Source: an uncultured Bacilli bacterium (GTDB taxonomy: Bacteria; Bacillota_I; Bacilli_A; RF39; UBA660). Taken from it: a DNA stretch of 10,826 nt. A model generated the notes under the pieces. That model did not search any database. It was not told the origin of the DNA and saw only the letters and a list, made by a program, of their open reading frames with translations. Location: contig CAQRXS010000037.1 in NCBI GenBank assembly GCA_948874605.1, positions 1-10,826 on the forward strand, read 5' to 3'. A program made the translations under genes and the position numbers. Shown here one piece after another: positions 3,116 through 8,936 of the stretch; positions within the stretch are counted from its first letter, which is position 1; each line of letters opens with the position of its first letter.

Positions 3116-3910
3116 TTAACTTCTTCCTTGCATTAAATTACTTGATGAATAGTTTTTTAATCCTTTGTTGAATGTAATAAAGGCTAATATTACAATAGAT
3201 ATTGTAAATAGTATTAGTATAATTAAGTTGATTAGTTTAAAATCCATAATTAAATGAACAGGAATCCATGAAGCTAAAGCACTAGGAATAAGGGTGAAAA
3301 ATATAATTTTTATTCCTCGATTAAATATTACATCTGGATATAGACTTCCGTTTAAGAAAGCATCTCTTAAGGCGTCTGTTATGAAACTTGATCTGTAATA
3401 GTAAAATGATAATGAATTGTATATACTTACAAAACTTATATATATTAAAGCTCCAAATATAATTAAAATAGTATATAGTAGTATATTTTTGATACTGAAG
3501 TTAAATATTATTAATGCTATGTAACCATATATTAAATCTCCAAATGCACTGGGTTCTAAACTTGATGTTGCTAGGTAACATAATGGATTTTTTGGTACTG
3601 TTAGGTATGCATCTAATTTACCAGTTTCTATATATTCAGGCATTTTTATAATACCATTAAACAAAATATGAGCTAAACCGAATCCGCCACTTGATATGGC
3701 CCAGAATAACATTACATCATTAAGTGAATATCCGCCAAGACTTTCTTTAAATGCAAATATTGTAAGCCATTGAATTATAAATGATGCATTATTAACTATC
3801 ATCATAATTACAGAAGTAGCAAATGCAACATTATTTTCCATAGCTTTAATTAAATTGTATTTTATTGAAATAAACATTATTTTTATATTGTTTTTAACCT
3901 CCGTTAACAT
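3116..3910 (-). CDS. ABC-2 type exporter permease, second subunit
   Basis: This is a 264-residue integral membrane protein and the partner of the permease and ATPase encoded just upstream. Hydrophobic segments lie near residues 29-54, 63-87, 123-140, 142-164, 200-216 and 225-247, giving about six membrane spans. The stretch IETGKLDAYLTVPKNPL (95-111) after the second span, and the gene order, resemble the COG3694 permeases that pair with COG4587 permeases and COG4586 ATPases (from memory). The start ATG at 3910 overlaps the end of the upstream permease gene by 17 bases, which implies translational coupling. GGGGTGA, about 9 bases upstream, supports this start. A GGAGG just inside the frame has no suitable later start codon. 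The substrate is unknown; the context suggests a toxic small molecule. Confidence 0.85.
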   Translation of the reverse strand: MLTEVKNNIKIMFISIKYNLIKAMENNVAFATSVIMMIVNNASFIIQWLTIFAFKESLGGYSLNDVMLFWAISSGGFGLAHILFNGIIKMPEYIETGKLDAYLTVPKNPLCYLATSSLEPSAFGDLIYGYIALIIFNFSIKNILLYTILIIFGALIYISFVSIYNSLSFYYYRSSFITDALRDAFLNGSLYPDVIFNRGIKIIFFTLIPSALASWIPVHLIMDFKLINLIILILFTISIVILAFITFNKGLKNYSSSNLMQGRS

Positions 3911-4685
3911 TTAATTTTTTCACCCCTCTTTCATATATAATAAATATTAATATTGATACTATTAGTATAATAATTATTTGTGATAGTAAGATTTCTTTTA
4001 ATATATGATAACTGAAATTTATTACTAGTTTAGCTGGTCCATAACTTACACCATATATTGGAGAAAATCTTATTATTTTTTGAACGATATTTGGAAACAT
4101 TTCTAAAGGAAAAAAGACACCAAACATTAAAATTATTTTATTGTATACCATTTGAAATGGTTTTGAATCTTCTACCCAAAATGAAGTTAAACTAATTAAT
4201 ATTTTTATTAAACCAGTTATTAAAACTGCTAGTAAGTATACTGGTATAGCACATATTAAAGATTCTATATTGAAACATTCAATAGGGCCAGCATATATTA
4301 ATCCTAAAGAAATGGCTATTAATAAAAACATAATAAATCTTATAAAAGTATCAGCTATGTATTTAAATACTGTATAAATTACATAATGATATGGCTTATT
4401 TACTTGATATGCAATATTGCCGCTTTTAATGCAATCCCTAATTTCATCAGTTGCTACTTTGCTACCACTACCAAAAGTTATTATCTCAGCAAGTAGTAAG
4501 TACCAGATCATTTGATTAAATGTATAGCCATTTATTATATCGTTTCCATCTTTGTATAAAAAAGACCATAAGCTTACTAAAATTGACATTGTGATTATAA
4601 AACCTATAAATCTAAATATTAGACTTGATGTATATTGTAGTGAATCATTAAAAGTTGTTTTCATTACTTCTAAATATTTTTTCAT
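3894..4685 (-). CDS. ABC-2 type exporter permease, first subunit
   Basis: This is a 263-residue integral membrane protein with hydrophobic segments near residues 21-43, 57-73, 101-133, 142-168, 182-201 and 230-251. The segment NGYTFNQMIWYLLLAEIIT (52-70), followed by the IKSGNIAYQVNKPY-type loop (86-99), is characteristic of the COG4587-like half of two-permease ABC-2 exporters, recognised from memory. Its ATG overlaps the ATPase stop in an ATGA arrangement (4685-4682), and AAAGGAAG lies a few bases upstream. It most likely forms a heterodimeric channel with the product of 3116-3910, energised by the ATPase of 4682-5662. The substrate cannot be read from the sequence. Confidence 0.87.
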   Translation of the reverse strand: MKKYLEVMKTTFNDSLQYTSSLIFRFIGFIITMSILVSLWSFLYKDGNDIINGYTFNQMIWYLLLAEIITFGSGSKVATDEIRDCIKSGNIAYQVNKPYHYVIYTVFKYIADTFIRFIMFLLIAISLGLIYAGPIECFNIESLICAIPVYLLAVLITGLIKILISLTSFWVEDSKPFQMVYNKIILMFGVFFPLEMFPNIVQKIIRFSPIYGVSYGPAKLVINFSYHILKEILLSQIIIILIVSILIFIIYERGVKKLNVNGG

Positions 4686-5662
4686 TTTTGACTTCCTTTA
4701 TATATAGAACTAATAATAGTTTCTAATGGTGTGTTTGAAATATTTATGTCTATTATTTTATCTGGGTCTAACATTTTTATTGCGTCACTAATGGTTTTTT
4801 TAGTTAAATCTACTTCTAATTTTAGATTATAGTCTTTATCTTTTAGAATAGTTATACCTTCTTCTGCGTCTAAATTTAGTTTTGTATTCATTTTGGCTTC
4901 AATAACTTTTTTGTTTAAATAATGATATTTTAAATTTTCCATAGAATCATCTAAAACGATATGACCTTCATTAACAATAATTACTCTTTTACATAGTTTT
5001 TCGATGTCTCCAACATCATGACTTGTTAGAAAAATAGTTGTTTTCTTTTCTTTATTTAATCTTTTTATAAAAACTCTTATTTTTTCTTTAACTACTGGAT
5101 CTAGACCGATAGTTGGCTCATCTAAAAATAAGATTTCTGGTTCGTGGATTAAAGATGCTACTATTTCACAAATCATTCTTTGTCCTAGAGATAAACTTCT
5201 AACTGGAGTATTTATGAAACTTTCTAGTTCAAAAATACTAGAGTATTCTTTAATTCTTTTTTCAACTATGCTATTTGGTATATCATATATTGCTCCAAAG
5301 AATTTAAAGTTGTCATATGGAGTTAGATGAATCCAAAGTTGTTCTTTTTGCCCGAATACAGTTCCTATTTTATAGGATAATTTTTTTCTTTCTTTTACTG
5401 GGTTTATTCCCATGATTGAAATCTTTCCGTTTGTTGGGAAAAGAATGCCAGTTAACATTTTTATGGTTGTTGATTTTCCTGCTCCATTTGGACCAATAAA
5501 TGCTAATATTTCCCCTTTTTCGATACTGAAATTTATATCGTCTACAGCTTTTTTCTCATTATAATTGGGCTTAAACATAGCTTTTATACTACCTTTAAGA
5601 CCTTTTTCTTTTTGTTTTGATTTAAATGTTTTTGATAAGTTTTTTACTTCTATTGCTAACAA
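4682..5662 (-). CDS. ABC transporter ATP-binding subunit of an ABC-2 exporter
   Basis: This 326-residue ATPase has the complete set of nucleotide-binding motifs: Walker A GPNGAGKST (57-65), Q-loop Gln105 in VFGQKEQLW, signature LSLGQR (157-162), Walker B ILFLDEP (177-183) and H-loop His215. The Lys/Gly-rich insert between the first strands (GLKGSIKAMFKPNYN, 21-35) and the VFGQxxQLW stretch are typical of COG4586-type ATPases, which work with two different permeases. About 80 C-terminal residues follow the ATPase core. The start is TTG at 5662-5660, with GAGG 7 bases upstream. The TTG follows the stop of the upstream acetyltransferase by one base. Drug or antimicrobial export is possible but unproven. 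Confidence 0.93.
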   Translation of the reverse strand: MLAIEVKNLSKTFKSKQKEKGLKGSIKAMFKPNYNEKKAVDDINFSIEKGEILAFIGPNGAGKSTTIKMLTGILFPTNGKISIMGINPVKERKKLSYKIGTVFGQKEQLWIHLTPYDNFKFFGAIYDIPNSIVEKRIKEYSSIFELESFINTPVRSLSLGQRMICEIVASLIHEPEILFLDEPTIGLDPVVKEKIRVFIKRLNKEKKTTIFLTSHDVGDIEKLCKRVIIVNEGHIVLDDSMENLKYHYLNKKVIEAKMNTKLNLDAEEGITILKDKDYNLKLEVDLTKKTISDAIKMLDPDKIIDINISNTPLETIISSIYKGSQK

Positions 5663-5663
5663 A

Positions 5664-6251
5664 TTACTTCCTCACTTTCTTTAAGTTCTTACTTTGACTA
5701 TACAAATTATAATATTCTTTTAATGATTTTGAAACATTTATGTTGTATCTTTGACATAATAAATTATTTTCGTCAATGTATTCTGATATTAATTTTCCAC
5801 CAAGAGCTTGCATTGTTTTGCTTGAACCGAGATTCTTTTTTTCACAATCTAGTATTACTTCTTCTAATCCGTATTGGTGACATATTTCTAGTGCCAAATA
5901 CAAATTAATTTTGTTATAGCCTTTTCTTCTTTCTGTAGGTCTTATGCTGTATCCAATATGTCCTCCGCTTCTTCTTAATTGGTCATTTAATTCTAGTCTA
6001 ATATTAATCATTCCAATTATTTTGCTATCACTTTCTCTTATTAAAAAGTAAATTAAAGCTCTGACTCGACCTGGCCCTGGATTTGATATGTCATTTTTTA
6101 GTTTTATTATCCATTCTTGATAGTTGTTTAGATATCTGTCTAATCCGCCACTTCCATGGATATTTGAATTATATCTATAGTGTTCTTCTATATATTCAAT
6201 ACCAGATTGTTTGTGTTTTAAAGTAGGTTTTACTAATCTTAAATATTCCAT
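5664..6251 (-). CDS. GNAT family N-acetyltransferase (COG3981-like)
   Basis: This 195-residue cytoplasmic enzyme is predicted to transfer an acetyl group from acetyl-CoA to a small molecule. The central beta-strand pair with IIGMINIRLELN (78-89) leads to the acetyl-CoA pyrophosphate loop GGHIGYSIRPTERRKGY (96-112), a textbook GNAT motif A (R/QxxGxG/Y type). DCEKKNLGSSKTMQALGG (135-152) is the motif B helix region. The overall shape recalls COG3981 predicted acetyltransferases. The ATG at 6251 has AAGAAAGGAGAG upstream with good spacing. The gene sits 18 bases after the previous acetyltransferase and one base before the ABC ATPase start. A Lys/Tyr-rich tail of about 35 residues follows the core. 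The substrate is unknown; antibiotic modification is one possibility given the neighbours. Confidence 0.9.
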   Translation of the reverse strand: MEYLRLVKPTLKHKQSGIEYIEEHYRYNSNIHGSGGLDRYLNNYQEWIIKLKNDISNPGPGRVRALIYFLIRESDSKIIGMINIRLELNDQLRRSGGHIGYSIRPTERRKGYNKINLYLALEICHQYGLEEVILDCEKKNLGSSKTMQALGGKLISEYIDENNLLCQRYNINVSKSLKEYYNLYSQSKNLKKVRK

Positions 6252-6269: not shown

Positions 6270-6728
6270 TTAGATTTTTAATTCCATTTTTATGCTTTTT
6301 TCTTCAAAACCTAAATGTTTGTAGAAATTAAATGCATTTTCGTTAAATGACCATACACTTAATATTAATCCATCACATTTTTCTTTATTGGCAAAAGATT
6401 TAGCAGTAGAAATTAAATTTTTTCCTATATTTTTCTTTTGACTCTTTTTTAATACTGCCAGTGTTTCGATTGCAAATAATTTTCTTGGCAATGTGAGATT
6501 AGACTCTGTTTCGATAACTTTTCCTATTAAAAAACCATCTATTTCTTTATTATTTTCGGACACAAAGATTTTTATTTCTTTATTTTTTAACATCTCTTTA
6601 AAAGATGTACTATTTATTGGATCTGTAAATTTAAATATTTCTGGTTCATTTTCAGCATGTAGATTTTGAACTTCTTTAAAAATTATTAGTATTTTTTTAA
6701 AATCTTTTAATTTTCCTAGTCTTATCAT
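6270..6728 (-). CDS. GNAT family N-acetyltransferase
   Basis: This is a compact 152-residue single-domain acetyltransferase. The beta-4 strand and acetyl-CoA loop are seen in AIETLAVLKKSQKKNIGKNL (86-105). The loop reads QKKNIGK, with Asn where most families have the first Gly of Q/RxxGxG. Motif B is seen in SFNENAFNFYKHLGFEEK (127-144), typical of GNATs that acetylate small-molecule amines or protein N-termini. The ATG at 6728 is preceded by GAAAGGAGAAC with about 9 bases of spacing, and the gene follows the nucleotidyltransferase stop by 15 bases. It is very AT-rich, like its operon partners. It is not closely related at motif level to the acetyltransferase that follows, so the pair are probably not a recent duplication. 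Confidence 0.9.
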   Translation of the reverse strand: MIRLGKLKDFKKILIIFKEVQNLHAENEPEIFKFTDPINSTSFKEMLKNKEIKIFVSENNKEIDGFLIGKVIETESNLTLPRKLFAIETLAVLKKSQKKNIGKNLISTAKSFANKEKCDGLILSVWSFNENAFNFYKHLGFEEKSIKMELKI

Positions 6729-6743: not shown

Positions 6744-7460
6744 CTATTCTATTTCTTGTCTTAAAATAAAATTATTTATATCAAAATTACCATCTTTAAT
6801 AACATATTCGTATAGTTTCTTTAAGTTTTCTTCATTTTCATTATTAAAGCAATTAATAACTAATTTATTAAATTTATTTCGAGGAAATTTATTTAATTTA
6901 TATTTTTCTCGGTATTTTTTATCTTTAAAAAATCGTTCTATTTTTTGCTCTGGCAAGAGATTGTAGTTATTGTTGTACATATATGCTTCAATTATATGTT
7001 TTAAACATATGTAGTATTGCATATGGTTGAAATATTTTGCTGCTTTATAGTCATCATATGCACACCATGCAGCGTAGTATTTCATAATATCTTTTTTGTT
7101 TTTGATTTTTTCATATTTTATTGCTTCTTTTTTTAGTGCAGGTATAATGTCATTTTTATCATATAAAATTTTACAGTTTTTTAGCATATTGGCTAAAGGG
7201 CCACCATGCCCTCTTTTATCTAATCTCATATATTCTATTAATTTTTTTTGAGGATTTATAAAATATTCGATTAGATAATTGTCTATTAAAACATTCCCTC
7301 GTTCACGATATTTTTCTTGGTCATTAATGATAATATATACATCTATATCACTATATTTGTCGTTATTTCCAACAGCATAACTACCAACTAATAATATCGC
7401 TTCGACATTTTCATTTTTTTTGTAATTTTTAACGAATTTATCTAAAGCTAACTTCCACAT
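6744..7460 (-). CDS. Pol-beta superfamily nucleotidyltransferase (aminoglycoside-adenylyltransferase-like)
   Basis: This 238-residue protein has the catalytic core of the NTP_transf_2 fold near its N-terminus. LLVGSYAVGNNDKYSDIDVY (23-42) gives the GS motif (Gly26-Ser27) and metal-binding Asp38 and Asp40. Glu65 in LIEYF is the likely third carboxylate. The rest (about 120-235) is helical and rich in Tyr, Lys and Asn, resembling the substrate-binding helical domain of antibiotic nucleotidyltransferases, but I cannot assign it to ANT(6), Lnu or another named class. Its likely reaction is NMP transfer to a hydroxyl on a small molecule. It is preceded by AGAAAGGAGTG at good spacing and lies 20 bases after the 45-residue peptide gene. 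It could instead act on a host protein or a nucleic acid, or belong to a toxin-antitoxin pair of the MNT/HEPN kind; no HEPN partner is seen. Confidence 0.85.
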   Translation of the reverse strand: MWKLALDKFVKNYKKNENVEAILLVGSYAVGNNDKYSDIDVYIIINDQEKYRERGNVLIDNYLIEYFINPQKKLIEYMRLDKRGHGGPLANMLKNCKILYDKNDIIPALKKEAIKYEKIKNKKDIMKYYAAWCAYDDYKAAKYFNHMQYYICLKHIIEAYMYNNNYNLLPEQKIERFFKDKKYREKYKLNKFPRNKFNKLVINCFNNENEENLKKLYEYVIKDGNFDINNFILRQEIE

Positions 7461-7480: not shown

Positions 7481-7618
7481 TTATTTTTTTAATGAGAGTT
7501 TTAAATTTTTTTCATAATATTTTCTTAAATATTCAAGATATGATTCATAATAATTTTTTAAATATTTATATAGATTCTTTTTGTAATATTCAAGTTCTTC
7601 TCTTGTATAAGTTTTCAT
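7481..7618 (-). CDS. 45-residue Tyr/Lys-rich repeat peptide
   Basis: This short ORF starts with ATG at 7618 behind a strong site (AAAGGAGAA, 7 bases upstream) and ends with TAA at 7483-7481. It is 20 bases before the nucleotidyltransferase start and just downstream of the terminator of the second RNA element. The sequence begins MKTYTREELEYYKKNL and continues as a predicted single long amphipathic helix with three units spaced 11-12 residues apart. Each unit has a YY pair (11-12, 23-24, 34-35) followed four residues later by Leu (16, 28, 39). It is highly charged, with no signal peptide. I know no family for it. Its strong ribosome binding site and conserved operon spacing argue that it is a real gene, not a leader by-product. 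Confidence 0.65.
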   Translation of the reverse strand: MKTYTREELEYYKKNLYKYLKNYYESYLEYLRKYYEKNLKLSLKK

Positions 7619-7640
7619 TTTAATTCTCCTTTCTTTTTAA

Positions 7641-7735
7641 ACAAAAAGAGCCACATATAATAATGTGACTCCGATTTCTCGTGTAGGTTTATCACCCTAT
7701 GTAGCTCGATAAAAATTAATCTTATACATACTCAC
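7641..7735 (-). ncRNA. Structured attenuator RNA, copy 1 (before the 45-residue peptide)
   Basis: Read on the minus strand, the element runs GUGAG, stem arm UAUGUA (7730-7725), UAAGA, a U-rich loop, UCGAGC, stem arm UACAUA (7703-7698), GGGU-5 nt-ACCU hairpin (7697-7685), ACACG (7684-7680), and CGGAGUCAC, leading into the terminator (7671-7648). The same architecture and conserved blocks occur at 7901-7991. UAUGUA/UACAUA is a perfect 6-bp pair whose sequence differs completely from that of copy 2, so it covaries. An alternative 10-bp pair, GAGCUACAUA (7707-7698) with UAUGUGGCUC (7657-7648), would compete with both that stem and the terminator. GC is about 40 percent, well above the flanking genes. 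I cannot name an RNA class; it is probably a transcription attenuator. Confidence 0.75.
7643..7671 (-). terminator. Terminator hairpin of RNA element copy 1
   Basis: The minus strand shows GAGUCACAU (7671-7663), a 6-base loop and AUGUGGCUC (7656-7648), a 9-bp stem with one G-U pair, followed by UUUUU (7647-7643). It lies inside the operon, directly before the ribosome binding site of the 45-residue peptide, so it must be bypassed for downstream expression. Confidence 0.85.
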
Positions 7736-7862
7736 CAAGAGTACGAAAACATAAGAAGGCGATACTTTTAATAGTCAAAGTGTAGATTTGCCCTGTTGTT
7801 TTCTGTACTATAAATTTTATTTTTAATACTTTTTGTGTGACATTATACCCGAATGACATCAT
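7722..7862 (-). CDS. 46-residue ORF between the two RNA elements
   Basis: The frame opens with tandem ATG codons (7862 and 7859) behind a near-perfect Shine-Dalgarno sequence, AAAAGGAGGTGA, 8 bases upstream, and ends with TAA at 7724-7722. The product (MMSFGYNVTQKVLKIKFIVQ, then a Thr/Ile-rich stretch, ending RTLGEYV) has alternating hydrophobic segments and no clear membrane span. I do not recognise it. A longer in-frame version from GTG at 7991 would translate through the RNA element and has no ribosome binding site, so I reject that start. Its last two sense codons and stop coincide with the first stem arm of the second RNA element. It may therefore be a regulatory leader peptide rather than a functional protein. 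GC is about 31 percent, higher than the nucleotidyltransferase downstream. Confidence 0.55.
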   Translation of the reverse strand: MMSFGYNVTQKVLKIKFIVQKTTGQIYTLTIKSIAFLCFRTLGEYV

Positions 7863-7882
7863 AAATATCACCTCCTTTTCTA

Positions 7883-7916
7883 GTTCGTGTTTTTTTGAAT
7901 ACAAAAAGCCACGAAC
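7883..7916 (-). promoter_or_regulatory. Alternative hairpin competing with the terminator of RNA copy 2
   Basis: The 3' arm of the copy 2 terminator can pair with downstream sequence instead. GUUCGUG (7916-7910) is perfectly complementary to CACGAAC (7889-7883). After a 2x2 internal loop, the inner UUUUUG/CAAAAA (7907-7902 with 7897-7892) adds six pairs around a UAUU loop (7901-7898). This pairing cannot coexist with the terminator stem and ends six bases before the strong AGGAGG of the 46-residue ORF. It could favour read-through RNA or alter access to that site. Confidence 0.55.
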
Positions 7917-7991
7917 AAAATATTCGTGACTCCGTTTAATACGTGTAGGTATTGTACCCAGCACAGCTCGAAAGTTCTTATGTGCTCTCAC
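7901..7991 (-). ncRNA. Structured attenuator RNA, copy 2 (5' leader of the operon)
   Basis: On the minus strand the order is GUGAG (7991-7987), stem arm AGCACA (7986-7981), UAAGAACUUUCGAGC (7980-7966), stem arm UGUGCU (7965-7960), GGGU-ACAAU-ACCU hairpin (7959-7947), ACACG (7946-7942), a short A/U linker, CGGAGUCAC and the terminator (7931-7907). The blocks GUGAG, UAAGA, UCGAGC, GGGU-N5-ACCUACACG and CGGAGUCAC are shared with copy 1, while the stem arms and hairpin loops differ. The predicted transcription start (about 7994) falls at the 5' edge of the element, so it would be the very beginning of the mRNA. GC is about 43 percent against a much lower background. It resembles a riboswitch or attenuator leader. 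GGGU...ACC is faintly reminiscent of a T-box antiterminator, but the UGGN tRNA-binding bulge is absent. Confidence 0.78.
7903..7931 (-). terminator. Terminator hairpin of RNA element copy 2
   Basis: AGUCACGAA (7931-7923) pairs with UUCGUGGCU (7915-7907), a 9-bp stem with one G-U pair, followed by UUUUU (7907-7903, the first U shared with the stem). It lies between the operon promoter and the 46-residue ORF. It would stop most transcripts unless an alternative fold forms. Confidence 0.83.
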
Positions 7992-8000
7992 TTGTTTATG

Positions 8001-8029
8001 AAAATAACACTTTTTTTTATATATGTCAA
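8001..8029 (-). promoter_or_regulatory. Promoter of the attenuated operon
   Basis: A perfect -35 TTGACA (8029-8024), a 17-base spacer and a -10 of TATTTT (8006-8001, four of six matches) lie just after the recombinase stop codon. The predicted start near 7994 agrees with the 5' boundary of the conserved RNA element. This independent agreement supports both calls. No terminator is visible between the recombinase stop and this promoter, so some read-through from the recombinase gene is possible. Confidence 0.75.
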
Positions 8030-8042
8030 ATTTTTTGATGAA

Positions 8043-8936
8043 TTATTGTCTTGGAAAAGATTTTAAGTAAACTCTTCTTAATCTTTCGTTTGTTATATGT
8101 GTATATATTTGTGTTGTAGATAATGATGAGTGCCCTAGTAATTCTTGCACACTTTTTAAGTCTGCTCCGTTATTTAACATATCTGTTGCAAAAGTGTGCC
8201 TTAGAACATGTGGCGATATCTTGTGTTTTAATGCAGCTTCTTCAACAACTTTGTTTACTATATTCTCTACGCTTCTACTAGATAGAGAACCGCCATTTTT
8301 ATTTAAAAAAAGAATATTAGGAGATTTTTTTGTTGCTAAGATTGGTCTTGATTCTTCTAGATATAGCTTTAAGTATTTCAGCGCATATTCACCAAAGAAA
8401 ACTATTCGATCTTTATTTCCTTTTCCTGTAATTTTTATTTCTTTGTCATTTATATCTATATCGTTTAAATTTATACTAGTTAATTCCGAAACACGTAGAC
8501 CTGTTGCATATAGTAATTCAATTATTAAACGATTTCTTATTTCTAAAGGAGTTTCGACTGAAAGTGATTCGAAAATTGTTTGTATTTCGTTAGGTTGGAG
8601 AAAATTTGGAAGCTTTTTTTCTTTCTTAGGATTTTTTATTAATTTGAAGTTATTTATTTTTATTTTATTTTGTGTTATTAAATAGGAATAAAAATGTCTT
8701 AAAGTACTTAAAGTTCTTGATATGGAATTTTTTGATAATTTTAGTTCGTCTAAATATTTTAAATATTCTCGAATTTGATCTTTATTAATAGTTATATAAT
8801 TGATTTTTTTGAGGATTATATAGCTATAATAATTATCTAAATCTCTTTGGCAACTTATTATGGTGTTTGTTGAATATCTTTTTTCGTTTTCTAAATATTT
8901 TATAAATTCTTTTATATCTTTTGATAAATAATTCAT
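8043..8936 (-). CDS. Tyrosine recombinase, XerC/XerD family
   Basis: This 297-residue site-specific recombinase cuts and rejoins DNA through a phosphotyrosine intermediate. Xer proteins resolve chromosome dimers at dif; relatives move integrative elements. The N-terminal SAM-like core-binding domain spans about 1-100 (KRYSTNTIISCQRDLDNYY at 19-37). The catalytic domain spans about 105-297, with Arg148 (ATGLRVSEL), Lys172 (GKGNKDR), His243 and Arg246 (HVLRHTFA), His269 (LGHSSLSTTQIYTH) and nucleophile Tyr278: the full RKHRHY set. Length and motifs match chromosomal XerC/XerD closely; I cannot decide which. The ATG at 8936 has AGGTGA four bases upstream and an extended -10 promoter. No att-like repeats are evident nearby, so housekeeping dimer resolution is more likely than element mobility. 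Its position beside the attenuated operon may still mark a variable locus. Confidence 0.93.
   Translation of the reverse strand: MNYLSKDIKEFIKYLENEKRYSTNTIISCQRDLDNYYSYIILKKINYITINKDQIREYLKYLDELKLSKNSISRTLSTLRHFYSYLITQNKIKINNFKLIKNPKKEKKLPNFLQPNEIQTIFESLSVETPLEIRNRLIIELLYATGLRVSELTSINLNDIDINDKEIKITGKGNKDRIVFFGEYALKYLKLYLEESRPILATKKSPNILFLNKNGGSLSSRSVENIVNKVVEEAALKHKISPHVLRHTFATDMLNNGADLKSVQELLGHSSLSTTQIYTHITNERLRRVYLKSFPRQ

Follow-up and report, generated by a model that had tools for sequence, protein, structure and literature searches.

What is encoded by the two similar elements that stand in series on the minus strand of a contig from an uncultured Bacilli bacterium, and what might they do for the genes behind them? 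An earlier note on this DNA (10,826 nt, the whole of the stretch analysed, hereafter the window) had read them as two copies of a conserved regulatory RNA of no familiar class. That reading is supported by searches against Rfam, by numerous homologues and by covariation in the first stem. The label "regulatory RNA" is well supported by the anatomy of the motif, and "riboswitch" is our best inference for a narrower name.

Architecture of the Two Copies

Both copies carry the order of elements that had been claimed for them, namely GUGAG, a 6-nt arm, UAAGA..UCGAGC and the complementary 6-nt arm, followed by GGGU-N5-ACCUACACG, CGGAGUCAC and a terminator. The arms of the first stem, AGCACA/UGUGCU in one copy and UAUGUA/UACAUA in the other, have changed on both sides with pairing kept, and the terminator arms differ in a compensatory way around AGUCAC..GUGGCU. 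The first stem and the terminator that made up the original description are both present, but the RNA has five helices rather than one stem and a terminator: GGGU-N5-ACCU is the hairpin P3, P4 is flanked by ACA and GAG, P2b sits inside the loop of the first stem (P2), and GUGA is able to pair with UCAC, a strand that the terminator uses too. The GC content of 40-43% attributed to the pair applies to copy A (41.8%) and not to copy B (33.7%), the window as a whole having 27.7%.

Copy A occupies 7991-7903 of the minus strand and is preceded by a promoter with the -35 box TTGACA (8024..8029) and, after a 17-nt spacer, the -10 box TATTTT (8001..8006), which stands 9 nt ahead of GUGAG; transcription would start near position 7994. 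Further upstream, the stop codon of a gene for a XerC/D-type recombinase (8043-8936, minus strand) precedes this promoter. The junction domain of copy A (7926..7991) scores 80.5 bits with the covariance model (E 1.3e-20) and comprises P1 (GUGA at 7991-7988 with UCAC at 7929-7926), P2 (7986-7981 with 7965-7960), an internal loop of UAA (7980-7978) facing GAGC (7969-7966), P3 (7959-7947) and P4 (7943-7933). Its intrinsic terminator (7903..7931, AGUCACGAA..UUCGUGGCU and then a U-run) takes in all 4 nt of the P1 3' strand and has a dG of -14.8 kcal/mol when the stretch is folded. Copy B (7735-7643, minus strand) repeats this layout, with a junction domain (7665..7735) of 74.4 bits (E 8.1e-19), P1 at 7735-7732 with 7668-7665, P2 at 7730-7725 with 7703-7698, P3 at 7697-7685, P4 at 7681-7672 and a terminator at 7643..7671 (GAGUCACAU..AUGUGGCUC, then a U-run), which again includes all 4 nt of the P1 3' strand (dG -14.5 kcal/mol, stretch folded). 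Between the copies lies a minus-strand ORF of 46 aa (7722..7862) with a Shine-Dalgarno sequence that looks strong by eye and no relative among 214 clustered proteins; the conserved UAA of copy B serves as its stop codon, and translation of the ORF could disturb that copy. Another ORF, of 45 aa (7481..7618, minus strand), follows downstream of copy B.

Relatives and Their Distribution

Of 68 stretches picked out of genome contigs by a pattern scan, two, L051 and L053 from Bacilli assemblies, hold the whole motif. Most pattern matches are chance, as GGAGTCAC occurs within 40 nt after the match only in L051 and L053 among 170 loci. A covariance model built from the two window copies recovered the same two loci at E 1.8e-7 and 6.9e-12, respectively; both genomes belong to the same Bacilli order, and that of L053 carries its own tandem of the RNA. 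At E<=0.1 the model from the window copies found matches in 17 of 193 genomes sampled from one Bacilli order, and a model trained on 32 sequences did so in 59 of 385 genomes of the same order, at E values down to 6e-21. Such E values, like those of L051 and L053, mark the motif as more than chance. The 32 training copies were gathered with a motif-like pattern, so that the conservation of GUGAG and GGAGUCAC is somewhat overstated.

Searches at the class level (8 of 395 genomes matched, of which seven had been found in the order before and one was weak) and at the phylum level (4 of 344, two known from the order and two weak) gave no confident match outside the one Bacilli order in these genome samples. 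The outside matches G582, G755 and G811 are weak, with best E values of 0.004-0.054, and in G755 and G811 the aligned stretches lose the fold. A viral scan with a wider pattern returned 10 stretches, the best of which (17.2 bits, E 0.019, 60% GC) was treated as chance. Since the whole-genome searches scored only the best few candidates per genome (11-32), distant relatives elsewhere could have been missed.

The set used below comprises 88 copies at 69 sites, the window included, after 7 of 95 rows had been dropped, either as weak (L243, L258, L273, L275, L310 and L278:161-233) or as a duplicate of L268 (L267:6815-6907). One of the weak rows, L243:2001-2085 in genome G009 (32.7 bits), has the conserved GGAGUCAC broken to GGAGGAAUAU and is probably a decayed true copy.

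Comparison with Known RNA Families

The RNA family is absent from Rfam 15. The whole window gave no match at E<=1, and scanning 7630-8010 alone at E<=10 yielded five rows at chance level, of which the trpB motif (RF04312) scored highest, its 21 bits (E 1.3) falling short of membership at a gathering score of 59; this motif was absent from the Rfam results of the other copies scanned. Twelve relative loci at E<=1, in which two tRNAs were found elsewhere, and two short stretches of L253 and L242 at E<=10 showed nothing credible over the motif, and no guanidine family appeared in the Rfam scans. A literature search outside the supplementary lists of PMC8040213 found no published description of the motif.

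The nearest systems in logic and cargo are the guanidine-IV riboswitch and its variant Gd4v. These consist of two hairpins joined by a pseudoknot, their motifs are associated with genes for MATE, sugE and transaminase, and Gd4v, the ligand of which is not known, is found mostly in gut metagenomes (PMC9788692). The resemblance lies in transcriptional ON control based on competition between aptamer and intrinsic terminator, shown or proposed there and suggested here, and in downstream genes for GNAT acetyltransferases and transporters; unlike those two-hairpin RNAs, the present one is a five-helix, four-way junction closed by P1 (PMC9788692). The trpB motif, too, belongs to 5' UTRs of Firmicutes and combines a first stem with a terminator, its commonest gene being one for an ABC transporter, but it has at least two hairpins and a different sequence (PMC11109978). 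Two sensor units in series within one leader recall tandem riboswitches such as those with PRPP aptamers; in contrast to these, each unit of the new RNA has its own terminator and at least one gene lies between the units in five of 19 tandems (PMC5912903, PMC9481103).

Fold and Covariation

The RNA can fold as a four-way junction closed by P1 (GUGA/UCAC), with P2, P2b, P3 and P4, all five helices being drawn by RNAalifold from 32 copies and P2b being placed beyond the UAA/GAGC internal loop. In 86 distinct rows 97.1% of cells pair (1644/1693) and double changes occur in 15 of 20 pairs, the count on which we rely; with the weak rows kept (92 distinct), 96.6% of cells pair, against at most 44.5% in slid controls, and 19 of 20 pairs have double changes. 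Changes on both sides were found at all six pairs of P2 (86 distinct rows). The null against which covariation was assessed (200 alignments) preserved the tree and, column by column, the count of changes. Four P2 pairs and one P2b pair reached values that none of the nulls matched and a fifth P2 pair had E 0.03, which gives five significant pairs in P2 and one in P2b, the covariation-backed, aptamer-like fold expected of a riboswitch; two combinations of columns inside P2 that do not correspond to base pairs likewise stood at E 0.03. The homologues thus bear out the covarying first stem that the earlier note had claimed, and at many loci instead of one. The sixth P2 pair (E 0.34) and the other two P2b pairs (E 0.35 and 4.7) were not significant under this null, under which covariation was marginal in P3 (best pair E 0.115, two others 10.7 and 33.6) and in P4 (best pair E 0.07, another 2.1), one pair in each of these helices being near invariant.

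P1 is near invariant as well, with double changes in one of its four pairs (5 rows of 86): five copies have GCGA/UCGC instead of GUGA/UCAC, and four more show the U-G intermediate. Its covariation was not significant (E 13), and parsimony counts 3 and 2 changes at the two columns. A pairing of GUGAG with CUACAC, considered as the main P1, was 100% compatible in the first 32 copies yet carries no information, and it was rejected because the five GCGAG copies keep CUACAC, so that the pairing breaks. The near-invariant unpaired positions cluster at the junction and the internal loop (the G after P1, UAA, the AGC of GAGC, ACA and GAG), and elsewhere the arms vary on both sides and loop lengths differ among copies. 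In a subgroup including L269 and L244, the apical loop of P2 holds repeats of about GTATGAAAA in differing number, a small tandem repeat within the RNA.

Promoter, Terminator and Position Relative to Genes

Promoters with at least five of six matches in both boxes precede 52 of 69 first copies, compared with 33 of 1760 control positions, and one of 19 downstream tandem copies. In 64 of 69 first copies the end of the -10 box lies 7-16 nt ahead of GUGAG, the other five having a weaker promoter match; this spacing would place the start of the RNA at or beside GUGAG and leaves a leader peptide no room. Because the downstream tandem copies mostly have no promoter of their own, tandem copies probably share one transcript.

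After 87 of 88 copies a terminator-like hairpin stands before a T-run, and each of the 87 hairpins draws two or more nucleotides of its 5' arm from the 3' strand of P1 or P4. Since the test for terminators was loose, taking the best fold ahead of any TTTT within 110 nt, a control at random positions was added: hairpins with dG <= -12 kcal/mol follow 80 of 88 copies, compared with 140 of 690 random positions. As the 5' arm of the terminator takes up the P1 3' strand and in many copies that of P4, junction and terminator are mutually exclusive, and an expression platform that excludes the aptamer, as a riboswitch should have, is thus seen in silico at 87 of 88 copies. The free fold, terminator included, exceeds the constrained junction in stability in 87 of 87 cases, by a median of 14.5 kcal/mol, a rough figure as the RNA lengths compared differ; OFF would accordingly be the default state, and readthrough would need something that holds the junction.

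At 67 of 69 sites the next ORF of at least 100 aa runs in the direction of the RNA (at one it is opposite, and one site has no such ORF), which together with the promoters before first copies is the position of a 5' leader co-directional with its gene. The previous ORF shares the strand at 53 of 69 sites (14 opposite, two without), and at none of the 69 sites does the RNA lie inside a longer ORF. For 65 of 88 copies, no more than 122 nt separate the core from the start of the first predicted gene.

Genes Downstream

In the window, the minus-strand genes presumed to form the operon start with a protein of 238 aa with a nucleotidyltransferase fold (6744..7460; PF18765, PF01909), all NCBIfam matches of which are far under cut-off and which has no relative in 73 fetched loci at E 1e-10. 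Two GNAT acetyltransferases follow, of 152 aa (6270..6728) and 195 aa (5664..6251), the latter belonging to a family of nine members at eight sites, itself included. Further down the presumed operon, behind these three genes, come an ABC transporter ATPase (4682..5662) and two permeases. Relatives of the ATPase occur in 23 of the 73 fetched loci, and those that stand at RNA sites of the Bacilli order are up to 76% identical, which suggests that the window comes from that order or a close neighbour of it; probable permease 1 (3894..4685), itself with no match in Pfam or NCBIfam, also has relatives in 23 of 73, and permease 2 (3116..3910) is of the ABC2_membrane_6 family (PF06182). The best NCBIfam match of the ABC system is DrrA, under cut-off, and the system is presumably an exporter.

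The homologues likewise stand upstream of varied genes, as the earlier note had proposed for a new class. An ABC ATPase/permease operon was found at 21 of 69 sites, a GNAT gene at 24 and either at 38; these counts are approximate, operons having been drawn by a simple ORF picker that missed the start of the window's ABC ATPase, so that the window is excluded from the 21. Checked in Pfam with one representative per named cluster, the cargo includes four GNAT clusters, a methyltransferase, peptidase S51, Nudix, the ABC ATPase, HMGL-like/homocitrate-synthase-like proteins, PNP_UDP_1 and a type I phosphodiesterase, and other sites start with Spo0A-like proteins or with families that have no Pfam match. 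At L300 and L304 the RNA stands ahead of the HMGL-like/homocitrate-synthase-like genes, a cargo that does not resemble detoxification.

The permease family PF06182 is represented in 31 of 56 RNA-positive genomes of the order, as against 3 of 56 RNA-negative ones, an enrichment that may come in part from kinship among the RNA-positive genomes. Of the 43 PF06182 clusters in RNA-positive genomes, 22 lie within 6 kb downstream of a copy and 21 do not, permeases that are not behind the RNA being found in these same genomes at G002:C14, G377:C6, G280:C134 and others. The predicted fold of one stand-alone protein comes nearest to the DNA-binding (effector) domain of Spo0A. This protein is present in 12 of the 56 RNA-positive genomes, where it is encoded directly downstream of a copy in 13 of 13 occurrences (L241, L256, L261, L262, L279-L282, L289, L291, L293, L298 and L306); in two cases (G234, G282) the matched stretch contains an in-frame TAG.

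Tandem Copies

Two copies are present at 19 of 69 sites, with gaps of 33-1214 nt that in 12 cases measure 33-84 nt. ABC genes are in the operon at 15 of 19 tandem sites and 6 of 50 single sites (p 2.4e-7). P2 of the second copy begins with U in 19 of 19 tandems and varies in first copies; first and second copies may descend from long-separate lineages or be functionally different. The five tandems with gaps of at least 643 nt have at least one gene between the copies, which is Spo0A-like in L282, L291, L293 and L298 (L298 has a further gene there) and belongs to another family in L248.

Proposed Mechanism and Alternative Explanations

From the anatomy, covariation and location, established in silico, we infer the direction of control, the kind of ligand, the export and the logic of the series as follows. 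We consider it fairly probable that each copy is a cis-acting, riboswitch-like transcription attenuator, used as an ON switch by some small molecule, and the RNA probably turns on genes that export or modify a small molecule by blocking the terminator. An RNA with its 5' end set by the promoter at or beside GUGAG would fold its first ~70 nt into a compact four-way junction of P2, P3 and P4 closed by P1. In the absence of ligand the more stable terminator would form and transcription would stop, and binding of the small molecule to the conserved junction would keep P1 closed and let the polymerase read into the genes. The cargo (ABC transporter, GNAT families, methyltransferases and enzymes acting on nucleosides or nucleotides) suggests that the ligand is, or signals, a harmful or surplus compound that the products would export or modify; the cargo being diverse (HMGL-type synthases, proteins with no assigned role), this guess is offered without confidence. 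Two copies in series would demand two antitermination events and might make the response steeper or AND-like.

An RNA-binding protein that recognises the junction and blocks the terminator could make use of this anatomy as well, in the way that BglG/LicT-type proteins act as antiterminators with their hairpins. The finding of the RNA in one order only, narrow for a riboswitch of a common metabolite, speaks against the ON riboswitch and fits a dedicated protein, and the constant position of the Spo0A effector-like gene directly behind a copy offers a candidate. With this protein in so few of the RNA-positive genomes, however, it is not a general partner, no protein cluster is common to all sites where operons were clustered, and a densely conserved junction is typical of small-molecule aptamers; a protein-dependent antiterminator is therefore unlikely in our view. 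In ribosome-mediated attenuation, known for many resistance genes, which the cargo resembles, a ribosome translating a leader peptide, and perhaps held up there by an antibiotic, opens the terminator; the 46-aa ORF of the window with its good-looking Shine-Dalgarno sequence, ending at the conserved UAA, provides a candidate translated leader for copy B. In 64 of 69 first copies, however, the short distance from the -10 box to GUGAG leaves no space for a ribosome-binding site and an ORF ahead of the RNA; most tandem gaps are also short, and changes on both sides of the arms together with variable loop lengths are unlike a reading frame, so that we regard this explanation as very improbable. We find a free-standing, trans-acting small RNA of ~90 nt ending at the terminator hardly credible: the promoter and strong terminator that flank most first copies would suit it, but the next ORF is almost always co-directional, the first gene commonly follows closely, the 3' strand of P1 lies inside the terminator and all but one of the downstream tandem copies have no promoter of their own.

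Returning to the small-molecule ON switch, a fuller version remains tentative and, in our judgement, somewhat short of probable. It would make the RNA a new riboswitch class, confined to one Bacilli order represented by uncultured assemblies. Its signal would be a toxic natural product or a compound derived from host or diet, and it would drive a regulon of export plus modification, two complete switches in series forming an AND-like or steepened gate ahead of the ABC transporter.

Significance

A well-supported RNA family with clear switch anatomy is hereby added beyond those of Rfam 15. The frequent pair in series, tied to the ABC operon, offers a natural test case for two full switches in a row. 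The cargo points to genes for coping with some chemical, and the ligand could reveal a so far unrecognised compound that these bacteria expel or modify.
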